DNA of 41,931 nt from Saprospiraceae bacterium (GTDB lineage: Bacteria; Bacteroidota; Bacteroidia; Chitinophagales; Saprospiraceae): contig WFXH01000062.1 in NCBI GenBank assembly GCA_015490715.1, positions 1 to 41,931 on the forward strand. The letters are read 5' to 3'. The notes below the pieces were generated by a model, which did no database searches, was not told the origin of the DNA, and saw nothing but the letters and a program-made list of their open reading frames with translations. A program made the translations under genes and the position numbers. Positions 24,836-30,752 of the stretch are shown in pieces (within the stretch, counting starts at the first letter, position 1; each line of letters opens with the position of its first letter).

Positions 24836-26989
24836 ATGGTCAATCCAAAGAGATATCTGGTGACGGCGGCGCTGCCCTATGCAAACGGGCCATTACATAT
24901 TGGCCACCTCGCCGGATGTTATCTTCCTGCGGACATCTACGTTCGCTTCAGACGCTTAGAGGGGGAAGAGGTATTGTTTATCTGCGGCTCCGACGAGCAC
25001 GGTGCGGCCATTACCTTGCGCGCAATGAAGGAAGGGATTTCCCCACGCACCTTGGTCGACCGCTATCATCGGCTGTTTCAAGAGACTTTTTCGGGCGTCG
25101 ACATTGGTTTTGATTACTATTTTCGAACTTCTCATGAGCTGCACCATCAAGTGGCGCGCGATTTTTTTTTGAAGTTGTATAAAAAGGGGGAGTTTGTCGA
25201 AAAGCACACCGAACAATTTTACGACGAAAAGGCCGGCATTTTCTTAGCCGATAGATATATCAAGGGCACCTGTCCTGAGTGCGGATATCCAGAGGCGTAT
25301 GGGGATCAGTGTGAGAAATGTGGGACCTCACTGAGCCCTACGGAATTGATTCATCCCGTATCGACGTTAACGGGTACGACACCCGTGTTGAAGACGACTA
25401 AACACTGGTTTTTCCCCTTGCAAAAGCACGAAAGCTGGCTGCGGAAGTGGATTGAAGATGGTGTTTTGGAGGGGCAGCAGCACCACTGGCCCGAGCAGTG
25501 GCGGACCCATGTAATCGGCCAATGCCGAAGCTGGTTGGACGGCGGTCTGCGCGAACGCGCGATGACGCGCGATCTCGATTGGGGCGTGGAGGTGCCCGAA
25601 GAGGTGCCGGGAAGCGCAGGTAAAAAGCTGTACGTATGGATGGATGCCCCCATTGGCTATATTTCCGCCACGCAGAAATGGGCAGAAGAGCGCGGCGCAG
25701 ATTGGAAAAAGTGGTGGCAAGATGAAGAGACGGCGCTGATACATTTTATCGGCAAGGACAATATCGTCTTTCACTGCATTATTTTTCCGGCCCTATTGCA
25801 TGCCCATGGAGATTATATTCTGCCGTACAATGTACCGGCCAATCAGTTTTTAAATTTCGAAGGCGATAAAATCTCCACTTCGCGGGGATGGGCGGTATGG
25901 GTGCATGAGTTTATACAAGAAATGCCCGACCGCATCGACGAGCTGCGATTTTATTTGAGTAAAATCATGCCCGAGCACAAAGACAGCGAATTTCAGTGGT
26001 CGGGCTTTATGGAGGCTGTCAACAGTGACTTAGTCAACAATCTTGGTAATTTTATCCATCGGGTCATCCATCTGACGCATCGGCTTTTTGAGGGCAAAGT
26101 GCCTCCGTATGATGAGGAGGTGGCCATTACGGCCTCGCGCAATCCCGACGAGCTGTCGTTTTGGGATAGCGAGGTGCTCGATCTGTTTGACCTTGCCGAT
26201 GAAGTGCGTCAGCAAATACACGCCTTCGAGTTTCGCAAGGCGCTCCAGGGTATTCTTGAAATCGCGGCGCGAGGCAATCAGTTGCTGCAGTTTAATGCCC
26301 CGTGGGAGTTGATTAAGAAAAATCGCGTGGCAGCCGAAACTGTTGTCCACCTCGGTTTGATTTACGTCGATGTGCTGGGGCTATTGGTGCATCCCTATAT
26401 GCCTCGGACAGCTGCCAAGATACGCGCGCTATTGAATAAAGAAGCCATACGCGAAGCAGGCGAATTAAAGGAAGCCTTTGAAATTCTGGCTTCGCTCGAG
26501 AGGAGCCTGTTGGTGCCTGGGTCAACTGTCCATCCTCCCGAGCGGCTTTTCCGCAAGGTAGAAGAAGCCGAAATCCAGTCCCAAAGAGAGAAGCTCCATC
26601 GCTTGCTATCGAAGGCCGATAAGCCGAAAGAGGCAAAATCATCTAAACCTGTAGAGACCATGCCCACAATCGAGTTTGAGGATTTCAGTCGTATGGATCT
26701 GCGGGTGGGCACCGTATTGCGTGCCGAGAGGATCAAAGGAGCAGACAAGCTCTTGCGTCTCGAGGTGGACTTGGGCAGCGAGCAACGCCAAATTGTGGCT
26801 GGTGTCGCCCAGCAGTATAGCCCCGAAGAGCTTGTTGGCAAAAAAGTGGTCGTGGTGGCCAATTTAAAGCCTAAGAAACTGCGCGGAGTCGAAAGTCAAG
26901 GCATGGTGCTCATGGCCGAAGATCGTGGCGGAAGGCTTCACCTCGTCGCTCCACCCGACGAATGTGAAGACGGCGCCAAAGTGCGTTAG
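24836..26989 (+). CDS. metG: Methionyl-tRNA synthetase with C-terminal tRNA-binding domain
   Basis: Charges tRNA-Met for initiation and elongation. The class I signature is HIGH at residues 21-24 (PYANGPLHIGHLAG), with KISTS near residue 344 as the second ATP-binding motif. A zinc-knuckle insertion with four cysteines (CPECG ... CEKCG) lies near residues 143-160. An anticodon-binding helical domain follows, then a Trbp111/EMAP-II-type OB fold from about residue 614 (FSRMDLRVGTVLRAE, GVESQGMVLMAED) that helps bind tRNA and dimerise. The length of 717 aa is normal for the long form. The stop codon overlaps that of the convergent asnS. Confidence 0.97.
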   Translation: MVNPKRYLVTAALPYANGPLHIGHLAGCYLPADIYVRFRRLEGEEVLFICGSDEHGAAITLRAMKEGISPRTLVDRYHRLFQETFSGVDIGFDYYFRTSHELHHQVARDFFLKLYKKGEFVEKHTEQFYDEKAGIFLADRYIKGTCPECGYPEAYGDQCEKCGTSLSPTELIHPVSTLTGTTPVLKTTKHWFFPLQKHESWLRKWIEDGVLEGQQHHWPEQWRTHVIGQCRSWLDGGLRERAMTRDLDWGVEVPEEVPGSAGKKLYVWMDAPIGYISATQKWAEERGADWKKWWQDEETALIHFIGKDNIVFHCIIFPALLHAHGDYILPYNVPANQFLNFEGDKISTSRGWAVWVHEFIQEMPDRIDELRFYLSKIMPEHKDSEFQWSGFMEAVNSDLVNNLGNFIHRVIHLTHRLFEGKVPPYDEEVAITASRNPDELSFWDSEVLDLFDLADEVRQQIHAFEFRKALQGILEIAARGNQLLQFNAPWELIKKNRVAAETVVHLGLIYVDVLGLLVHPYMPRTAAKIRALLNKEAIREAGELKEAFEILASLERSLLVPGSTVHPPERLFRKVEEAEIQSQREKLHRLLSKADKPKEAKSSKPVETMPTIEFEDFSRMDLRVGTVLRAERIKGADKLLRLEVDLGSEQRQIVAGVAQQYSPEELVGKKVVVVANLKPKKLRGVESQGMVLMAEDRGGRLHLVAPPDECEDGAKVR

Positions 26990-28428
26990 TAAGCGACGTA
27001 TCCCGGATATCGCGGAAAGGGAATAGCGTCACGGATGTTTTGCATGCCCGTGACAAATTGCACCAGCCGATCAAATCCGAGACCAAAGCCCGCATGGGGG
27101 CACCCACCCCAGCGCCGAATGTCGAGGTACCATTGCATTTCGTCAGGTGCAATGCCTATTTGAGTCATGCGCTTTTTGAGTACCTCGATGCGCGTTTCGC
27201 GCTCGGAGCCACCGATGATTTCACCAATGCCGGGGAAGAGCACATCCATGCCGCGCACAGTCTTGCCGTCGTCGTTGAGATACATGTAAAAGGCCTTGAT
27301 TTCGGCCGGATAGTTGTAGATGATGACGGGTTTTTTAAAGTGTTTTTCGACTAAATAGCGCTCGTGCTCGGTCTGAAAGTCGATTCCCCAATCGGTGAGT
27401 GGGTATTTAAACTTTTTCTTCCTGTTGGGTTTGGACGCTTTTAAGATGTCGAAGGCCTCGGTATAACTGATGCGCTGAAAGGGCTCCGAGAGGACGAACT
27501 GGAGCTTTTCGATCAGTGGCATGGGCGAACGCTTCTCTTTGGGCAGCTGTTTTTCTTCGTCTTCGAGTCGCTTTTGGAGGAAAGCCAGCTCGTCGGGGTA
27601 ATGCTGGAGGCTGTATTGGATGAGATGTTTGAGCAGCTCTTCGGCCAGGTCCATGATATCGTCGAGGCGTGCGAAGGCCACTTCGGGTTCGACCATCCAG
27701 AATTCGGCGAGGTGTCGGGTGGTATGGCTCTTTTCGGCGCGAAAGGTGGGTCCAAAGGTGTATACGCGCGTCAGTCCCATAGCGGCCAGCTCTGCTTCGA
27801 GCTGACCGGACACAGTCAAATGCGCTTCTCTGCCGAAAAAGTCCTTCGACCAATCGACGGAGCCGTCTTCTTTAAGGGGTGGATTTTTCGGGTCGAGCGT
27901 GGTCACGCGAAACATCTCGCCGGCGCCTTCGCAGTCGCTCGCCGTGATGATGGGGCTGTGCAAGTAGTAGAAGTCCTTTGAGTGAAAAAACTCGTGGATT
28001 GCAATAGCCAGGCCGTGACGGAGGCGAAAGACGGCGCCAAAGGTATTGGTCTTAAAACGCAGATGGGCAATGCTGCGCAGAAATTCGAGGGAGTGCTTTT
28101 TGGGTTGGAGGGGGTAGCTGTTGGGGTCGGCCGGGCCGTGTACGATGATGTGCTGGGCCTGCATTTCGACGCGCTGTCCCTTGCCGGGACTCTCGACGAT
28201 GGTGCCGTGGGCTTCAAGGGCAGCTCCTGGGGTGATATTTTTCAGCGTCTGATCATCGATGGCTGAGCTGTCGACGACGATTTGGAGGGGCTGTACGGTG
28301 GTGCCGTCGTTGAGCGCGATAAACTGGTTTTGGCGAAAGGTGCGCACCCAGCCCTTCACTACGGCTGGAAAGGGGATATCGGTGGCGTTGAGTATTTGTT
28401 TGACTGTAAAGTGCGGAGCGGAGCTCAT
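26986..28428 (-). CDS. asnS: Asparaginyl-tRNA synthetase
   Basis: A class IIb synthetase that charges tRNA-Asn. An N-terminal OB-fold anticodon-binding domain (VKGWVRTFRQNQFIALNDG) is followed by the catalytic core with motif 2-like FRAEKSHTTRHLAEFWMVEPE and motif 3-like GFGLGFDRLVQFVTG. FPGIGEIIGGSERE is a further family block. I prefer the ATG at 28428 (MSSAPHF) over the in-frame TTG at 28440, because a consensus -7 element ends 20 nt upstream. The direct enzyme suggests tRNA-Asn is charged without the transamidation route. Confidence 0.96.
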   Translation of the reverse strand: MSSAPHFTVKQILNATDIPFPAVVKGWVRTFRQNQFIALNDGTTVQPLQIVVDSSAIDDQTLKNITPGAALEAHGTIVESPGKGQRVEMQAQHIIVHGPADPNSYPLQPKKHSLEFLRSIAHLRFKTNTFGAVFRLRHGLAIAIHEFFHSKDFYYLHSPIITASDCEGAGEMFRVTTLDPKNPPLKEDGSVDWSKDFFGREAHLTVSGQLEAELAAMGLTRVYTFGPTFRAEKSHTTRHLAEFWMVEPEVAFARLDDIMDLAEELLKHLIQYSLQHYPDELAFLQKRLEDEEKQLPKEKRSPMPLIEKLQFVLSEPFQRISYTEAFDILKASKPNRKKKFKYPLTDWGIDFQTEHERYLVEKHFKKPVIIYNYPAEIKAFYMYLNDDGKTVRGMDVLFPGIGEIIGGSERETRIEVLKKRMTQIGIAPDEMQWYLDIRRWGGCPHAGFGLGFDRLVQFVTGMQNIRDAIPFPRYPGYVAY

Positions 28429-28447
28429 TGATCTGCGCAATTTGGTG

Positions 28448-28704: not shown

Positions 28705-28737
28705 TTTGTGTGCAATGGGATAGGGCCTGCATCTTTG
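28705..28737 (+). promoter_or_regulatory. Promoter of the putative small RNA
   Basis: TTTG at 28705-28708, a 21-nt spacer and CATCTTTG at 28730-28737 match the -33/-7 layout, with one mismatch in the -7 box (C for T). There is no plausible gene downstream on this strand before strong terminator hairpins, which points to a non-coding transcript. Confidence 0.5.
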
Positions 28738-28740
28738 TAG

Positions 28741-28902
28741 CGTGAATGGTGCAAAAGTGTAGCATTCACGAGGGGTTCAAGCCTCTACCTACAATTGCTT
28801 AGCTCCTTTGATGCTTTTGTTGCAAGTTTGATTAAGTTCATGGGATTATGGTTGATAATAGTGAGTTGTACCGCCCGGTACAACTCATTATTATCGCTTT
28901 TT
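28741..28902 (+). ncRNA. Candidate small structured RNA (about 160 nt)
   Basis: The unit has a promoter just upstream, a perfect 8-bp 5' hairpin CGTGAATG/CATTCACG (28741-28748 / 28763-28770) and a second small stem GAGG/CCTC at 28770-28785. It ends in a 19-bp stem with one G-U pair (28854-28872 / 28877-28895), loop GCCC and a run of five T at 28898-28902. The loop of the first hairpin can pair with CTTTTG at 28814-28819, making a possible pseudoknot. No ORF of normal length is present and I do not recognise an Rfam family. Existence of the RNA is inferred from promoter, structure and terminator only. Confidence 0.45.
28854..28902 (+). terminator. Very long terminator hairpin
   Basis: A 19-bp stem (one G-U pair) with the tetraloop GCCC, followed by GC and TTTTT. 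This is far longer than needed for termination and would be very stable. Confidence 0.75.
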
Positions 28903-28981
28903 GAAGGTGCTGTCAAAGTTCGTTTCCGTATAGGGTTGAAGACTGTAGTCATTTGTTGTTCATGGGATTAGTAGTGAAAAG

Positions 28982-29014
28982 TCGGTTGTCTCGATGTTGA
29001 GGCAGCCGATTTTT
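28982..29014. terminator. Second hairpin of the intergenic region
   Basis: An 11-bp stem (two G-U pairs), TCGGTTGTCTC / GAGGCAGCCGA, loop of 6, followed by five T on the plus strand. On the minus strand a TTTT also follows, so it may act in both directions. Confidence 0.6.
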
Positions 29015-29037
29015 CATTTTATGGAGGGGGTTAAGAA

Positions 29038-29099: not shown

Positions 29100-30752
<1,653 letters not shown>

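Follow-up and report, generated by a model that had tools for sequence, protein, structure and literature searches.

Tandem-unit small RNAs of Saprospiraceae with a conserved core that is a candidate start-codon antisense seed

The window analysed here is a stretch of 41,931 nucleotides from a Saprospiraceae bacterium, and the RNA of interest lies on its plus strand between two minus-strand genes, asnS (26986–28440, NCBIfam TIGR00457) and groEL (29100–30731, NCBIfam TIGR02348). An earlier note, made from the sequence of the window, had named both neighbours correctly and had placed an RNA of about 160 nt between them. The promoter that it had read, TTTG-N21-CATCTTTG, occupies 28705–28737, with a −33-like TTTG at 28705–28708, 21 nt, and a −7-like CATCTTTG at 28730–28737. 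A 5′ hairpin follows at 28741–28770, and its perfect 8-bp stem (arms 28741–28748 and 28763–28770), closed by an A-rich apical loop, is confirmed in the sequence. Further downstream is the first copy (GTTCATGGGATTA, 28836–28848) of a 13-nt core, GUUCAUGGGAUUA, which occurs twice in the window, each time followed by a long hairpin. The first of these hairpins (28854–28895), taken by the note as the terminator, is a 20-nt inverted repeat (28854–28873 and 28876–28895, 95% complementary) with TTTTT behind it at 28898–28902. Absent from that description were the second core (GTTCATGGGATTA, 28958–28970), a direct repeat 122 nt downstream of the first, and the second hairpin (28973–29018), which in the minimum free energy fold has a 21-bp stem with an A-tract/U-tract base and a U-run at 29010–29014, and is the likely terminator.

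We compared this region with related genomes. A nucleotide search of 60 relatives matched the whole region in only one same-genus genome, the sister genome (G001, 97% identical), and among the 60 the 5′ hairpin was found there alone, with both arms unchanged. Fifteen further loci came from weak matches; 11 of these, spread over 11 genera, contain no more than the repeat with its downstream hairpin. The note had proposed an alignment of relatives as a check of its helices, and what relatives conserve is the repeated core with its hairpin. The exact 13-mer is present in 104 of 120 Saprospiraceae genomes and 99 of the 112 sampled genera, mostly in tandem hairpin arrays and often several times within a few hundred bases of one strand; a reversed-pattern control gave 5 matches over all 120 genomes. 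Several array locations per genome were often found in the same 120. A 14-nt version of the core was detected as single copies in 5 of 130 genomes from other families of the order (5 control matches) and in 9 of 290 genomes of the phylum outside the family (4 control matches; some genomes are shared with the set of 130), so its occurrence outside Saprospiraceae appears to be near chance level and we take the family to be one of Saprospiraceae. At least 80 named-genome records with the core are labelled Saprospiraceae or other Bacteroidota, with two exceptions among the matches listed, one labelled 'bacterium' and one Candidatus Peregrinibacteria. The latter record (L101) carries one core and is probably a case of binning contamination. 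Arrays are also present in the cultivated species Phaeodactylibacter luteus and Flavilitoribacter nigricans. The note had matched the RNA to no family that it recognised, and this agrees with Rfam release 15, in which, at the gathering score, the window gives only a tRNA, 10 array loci give nothing and 19 loci give two tRNAs only.

Before de-duplication, 162 clusters of one to six copies each, most often two, were counted. The de-duplicated set holds 143 non-identical arrays with 289 units; isolated 13-mer matches (L032, L033, L041) and exact-duplicate arrays were dropped, while at least one chance coding match (L036) stayed in and a few more chance matches may remain. The core AUAUGUUCAUGGGAUUAUAAU hardly varies, in part because it served as the search pattern, and UUCAUGGGAU is kept at 83–95% per base in 42 copies that were found by neighbourhood, not by exact match, some of which may be chance windows. 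A coding reading of the core (ATG TTC ATG GGA TTA TAA) was rejected: its ATG start and its TAA stop are missing from each copy in the window, and the 42 variant copies show no codon-like variation. One lone unit (L188, genome G071) has its core changed to GTTTATGGGATTATAATTTG, apparently a lineage-specific change of the putative seed. Hairpins just upstream of cores in relatives have an AAA-containing apical loop in 131 of 265 cases.

The hairpin after the core covaries. In an alignment of 28 units, for which 27 were selected from 51 candidates as being alignable and the unit 1 hairpin of the window was added, 10 of the 13 stem pairs change on both sides and 90% of cells pair; none of 500 shuffles was as good, and RNAalifold recovers the same stem. 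A common unit stem, ACGACTCACTAT (for example L007 and L020), matches 12 nt of the T7 promoter, presumably by coincidence. U-runs of at least 6 follow the hairpin in 79% of 99 last units and 65% of 37 lone units, as against 12% of 104 first units and 11% of 61 middle units (301 units scored, units near a locus end left out). Since long U-runs are found mainly at the last hairpin, an array appears to be one transcript in which usually only the last hairpin terminates, and for this reason the RNA in the window probably spans 28742 to about 29020, giving a predicted transcript of some 280 nt that holds two core-plus-hairpin units. Its proposed start falls at GTGA, which is conserved just after the promoter in relatives, and its fold scores z −7.7 against shuffles; the shorter RNA of the note also folds far better than shuffles (z −6.3). 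Both window hairpins carry five U, and partial stopping of transcription at 28902, behind the first, is possible. We regard a tandem-unit small RNA family of Saprospiraceae as near certain to be real.

Arrays share a promoter but no gene neighbourhood. In 90 of 101 arrays the first unit is preceded by a TATTTGTATTGTGA-like box with at most 4 mismatches. A 22-nt weight matrix was trained on 84 array instances, taken from relatives for having a box within 3 mismatches and excluding both the window and its sister genome. With this matrix the window site scored 24.3 bits, the top rank among 83,818 positions counted over both strands, and the model's own instances average 24.5 bits; the window promoter is far above chance. 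In the neighbour-gene comparison no single gene accompanies all arrays. The largest group comprises 27 arrays near a cytochrome-c-peroxidase-like gene, followed by 15 near a gene for an Ig-domain protein exported by the type-9 secretion system (T9SS) and 11 near an S8-protease-like gene, the peroxidase and protease names being judged from sequence. The peroxidase-like gene is the nearest upstream gene, on the same strand, in 25 of its 27 arrays (L034, L035, L037 and L039 among them), and some loci of this group also have an MbnP-like gene, again named from sequence. At L189 (G000, C75:13423 region), a structured leader-like stretch precedes an apparent methionine-synthase-like gene, and we take it to be possibly a SAM-type riboswitch.

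These comparisons bear on two other readings of the locus. In the first, that of the earlier note, the RNA is about 160 nt long, has a single unit and bears an H-type pseudoknot with a regulatory role. A promoter-driven small RNA on the plus strand is supported by the comparative evidence, the ten pairs, three of them wobble, between the loop (28751–28760) and a downstream segment (28811–28820) are present, and the U-run at 28898–28902 could stop some transcripts. The pairing is, however, at chance level: at least ten consecutive pairs between the loop and the 65 nt downstream arose in 118 of 2000 dinucleotide shuffles, and with the whole downstream RNA in 145 of 1000. In the predicted fold of the shorter RNA the same loop is used for an inner stem, and the arms that frame it are those seen only in the sister genome. 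The terminator hairpin and its T-run exist, but a second unit follows them, and first units of the family seldom have a long U-run. The RNA appears to be real but longer than described and differently built, with boundaries that were probably wrong, and we find the single-unit pseudoknot version hardly credible. A different proposal is that the arrays are dispersed terminator- or REP-like DNA repeats, spread by duplication and devoid of regulatory function. Near-identical tandem units in some arrays (L045, for instance) and the several locations per genome would suit such repeats, whereas the low copy number, the promoter common to arrays, the retention of the core in most sampled genera while stems change by compensatory pairs, and the concentration of long U-runs at the last hairpin would not, and we judge this very unlikely.

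What the core might do is suggested by its complement, AACAAATTATAATCCC-ATG-AAC-ATA-TCC-AAA, which reads as a start codon followed by the codons of M-N-I-S-K. A matching start region was met at the gene adjoining the arrays in one group of loci. The protein encoded there has about 830 residues, Ig domains and a type-9 secretion tail (Big_9 and TIGR04183 over cut-off, a cohesin match below it), and is matched in 106 of 120 family genomes, 12 of these matches being judged partial only. In many species the gene begins ATG-AAT-GTA-TCT or ATG-AAT-ATA-TCT. Duplexes of the consensus core with 69 ortholog starts, which were placed automatically (none was found for one ortholog, L290), have a mean energy of −15.7 kcal/mol, compared with −10.8 (sd 2.9) for 527 other starts. 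Against a null of 300 shuffled cores that keep UUCAU and shuffle the flanks, 24 of 68 orthologs (one with N in its start region left out) pass at p 0.05, versus 8 of 150 unrelated ATGAA genes. Among the most divergent orthologs, those less than 32% identical to the query, pairing is not in excess (1 of 17 pass). Because orthologs share descent and starts were automatic, these p-values overstate independence.

Codon usage at the third position gives a further indication. Of the 37 orthologs with Ile or Val at codon 3, 34 use ATA or GTA, as do 18 of the 20 such orthologs under 40% identity; the background for ATA/GTA is 24% when the bodies of these orthologous genes are counted and 34% when the early codons of unrelated positions, those of other genes, are. 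As the biased bases are those that face the core, the bias points to a constraint on the RNA rather than on the protein. Core and ortholog also tend to occur together: 14 of 16 core-less genomes lack a full-length T9SS ortholog, compared with 12 of 104 core-bearing genomes (Fisher p 1.4e-9), a hint only, as this p is uncorrected for phylogeny and the list of ortholog-absent genomes (14 with no match plus 12 with partial, mostly C-terminal matches) was set by hand after the core results had been seen. Counts of the whole-core complement were rejected as sufficient proof of targeting by themselves. ATAATCCCATGAAD gave 27 matches in 61 genomes (4 control matches); 10 of the 27 resemble array-type units whose first base has changed, and 3 of the other 17 were judged gene starts. 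TAATTCCATGAACA gave 7 (1 control), one possibly a gene start. TAATCTCATGAAM gave 84 (18 control), many of which belong to a second array class and are not targets, with loci obtained for 30 of these places.

Within the window's own genome (G000) the evidence for targets is only suggestive. Allowing up to 2 mismatches, the core complement has 44 matches, including the two array copies, against 22 for the reversed control. Among the 34 non-array matches that keep ATG in place, eight were judged gene starts, and seven of these eight encode proteins with a signal-peptide-like or lipoprotein start. The sequence TAATCTCATGAA(A/C), one wobble from perfect, occurs 4 times in this genome, always at gene starts, and the proteins encoded there look exported. 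In a permuted-seed test covering 1.38 Mb, or 56% of the genome, 3 starts have nine of ten pairs with at most one wobble (null mean 0.37), a number reached by 3 of 629 permutations, while two stricter counts gave 0 observed with null means of 0.06. One of the three starts (L424) is a second in-frame ATG behind an upstream frame open for 58 codons, and may not be the true start. By duplex energy the four TAATCTC starts rank 2nd, 12th, 120th and 197th. The T9SS ortholog of this genome does not start M-N-I/V-S; it pairs moderately with the consensus core (rank 0.17), and if paired with the two cores of the window it would come 72nd of 2066 candidate starts. Signal-peptide enrichment among predicted targets is weak, with no significance in the top 20 or top 40 and p 0.034 in the top 80.

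Two further sets of sequences resemble the array units. In six loci (L079, L080, L082, L086, L126 and L162), the 3′UTR of the T9SS gene carries UAUAUUCGUGGAAUUAUAAUCAUUGC, a hairpin of the same style and a U-run, and this unit can pair with the start region of its own gene. The number of shuffles as good, out of 500, was 0 for L080, L126 and L086, 4 for L082, 15 for L162 and 32 for L079, so that by this test the pairing is weak in L079 and L162. In L080 and L126 it uses the start codon itself, and both sides differ relative to other species. The 3′UTR unit may possibly mediate autoregulation of the T9SS mRNA. The other set is a second, paralogous RNA class with conserved TTAGGTCGTCTTATT..TTCATGAGATTATGATTTGTTATTAGC and a GC-rich terminator, in which the core is UUCAUGAGAUUAUGAUUUG and still contains the AUG complement. 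It is present once each at L455, L457, L460, L478 and L482, and in two copies each at L464, L466 and L481. Several of these loci have CATAATCCCA and a GGTTCC... hairpin upstream, and AUAAUCCCA of second-class loci is complementary to the array core; this element is a possible sponge or anti-seed.

The family, its promoter, the covariation of its hairpins and the complementarity of its core to gene starts are direct results of computation. On top of these we propose a mechanism in which the Bacteroidetes-type −33/−7 promoter would make one transcript of two repeat units, as arrays of relatives would make transcripts of one to six units, most often two. Each unit would display an unpaired core, GUUCAUGGGAUUA, followed by a stable hairpin, and the last hairpin would terminate transcription. 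The core would serve as an antisense seed, its UUCAU pairing with AUG-AA and its flanks with bases around the start codon, and would thereby cover the site of translation initiation on a small set of mRNAs, most of which encode exported proteins. The best family-wide candidate target is the T9SS-exported Ig-domain protein, with start AUG-AAY-RUA-UC. We consider it reasonably probable that the RNA is a trans-acting, base-pairing small RNA whose core is a start-codon antisense seed, found here only in Saprospiraceae. Antisense action of the core is likely on the sequence evidence, and the RNA probably lowers production of some exported proteins; that it is transcribed, that it represses and which messages it meets in the window organism are things we infer from the sequences.

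The most serious competitor to an antisense seed is a protein-sequestering sponge. CsrB/RsmZ-type sponge RNAs hold several copies of a short motif between hairpins in one RNA, and the arrays share that layout, with an identical core repeated between hairpins one to six times per array and often in several arrays per genome. Under such a reading, of the CsrB/RsmZ or CrcZ type, the core would titrate an RNA-binding protein and the complementarity to starts would be a side effect. The core contains GGA, and with about 13 nearly invariant bases it is very long, exceeding the length of most seeds, and may just as well be a site for protein binding. A CsrB-like sponge was rejected, as CsrA (PF02599) was found in 0 of 41 family genomes by a search in which E. 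coli, B. subtilis and T. maritima controls were positive, and the array core, unlike the CsrB motif, looks like the antisense of a coding start. A sponge would also leave unexplained the codon-3 bias of the T9SS gene, the pairing of the 3′UTR unit with its own start, and the second class, in which the core has changed and the AUG complement is retained. We therefore hold the sponge to be unlikely and continue with the antisense seed as the preferred reading.

To our knowledge, what is understood of regulatory RNA in Bacteroidota comes from few model species. If the antisense reading is true, the arrays would constitute a family-wide RNA with a common promoter, a seed that hardly varies and one specific target predicted for it; they would provide a testable link between the FopS RNAs of Bacteroides and environmental Bacteroidota, and would explain why the gene of an exported protein begins with unusual codons. 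Searches of open-licence PMC papers found the core sequence in one unrelated paper, and in the Saprospiraceae and Bacteroidetes small RNA literature of the same collection no such tandem-seed array is described in a title or the opening of an abstract among the matches listed. Multi-copy-seed RNAs that act on target translation starts exist in other phyla, as with LhrC and Qrr; these share with the arrays the several copies of one seed and differ in phylum and in the seeds themselves. Another comparison is with Rfp18 of Flavobacterium, a conserved structured small RNA of the same phylum that acts on secreted-protease mRNAs (PMC9723704). According to the available part of that paper its pairing region lies in the third stem-loop and tandem units are not mentioned, and it is by this description, not by sequence, that we set it apart.

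The closest likeness is to the FopS RNAs of Bacteroides, for which the available part of the source reports an unpaired seed and a hairpin terminator, binding of the RRM protein RbpB, pairing of the seed around the start codon of SusC-like transporter mRNAs, and one member derived from a 3′UTR (PMC11697453). As far as that part of the source goes, FopS/GibS (RF04319) RNAs occur in multiple copies, and in each a conserved seed is left unpaired ahead of the terminator hairpin, a description that the arrays also answer, and the 3′UTR-derived FopS has a counterpart in the T9SS 3′UTR unit of Saprospiraceae. The FopS consensus UUCAUGGUAUUA and UUCAUGGGAUUA of the arrays are identical at 11 of 12 positions; the shuffle p for likeness of core to FopS seed is 0.04–0.07 with the consensus core and window unit 1, and 4e-4 with window unit 2. 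The two differ in that the FopS consensus has one seed region, while arrays mostly have two or more tandem units. Membership of FopS itself was rejected: with the RF04319 covariance model the window scores 17.3 bits against a cut-off of 56, none of 41 Saprospiraceae genomes has a match over cut-off, and none of ten loci from the search has the array core. One sub-threshold match (G030:C67:42500–42571, 23.1 bits) is an array-like unit, and among the matches listed this is the only one of 73 FopS matches to coincide with such a unit (against 45 core positions). Another sub-threshold match (L205, G031, near position 1507; 25.4 bits) has TTTTTCATGCTATTATATT before a terminator hairpin; it is not the array core and could be another start-antisense seed. 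An RNP1-like pattern scan for an RRM protein over 1.38 Mb (56%) of the window's genome gave no candidate. Because the membership test fails, the array RNA would be one that works like FopS/GibS and yet is not FopS itself. As a speculative extension, which we think possible but doubt, the Saprospiraceae arrays, the T9SS 3′UTR unit, the second class with UUCAUGAGAUUAUGAUUUG and the Bacteroides FopS/GibS RNAs could all descend from a single old system of start-codon antisense seeds, spread across the phylum and deciding which exported proteins are made. In Saprospiraceae several seeds would then have been fused into one transcript, and the matching anti-seed element would perhaps act as a sponge. 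Set beside these known systems, the array RNA would be a further form among the start-codon antisense RNAs, one not in Rfam.
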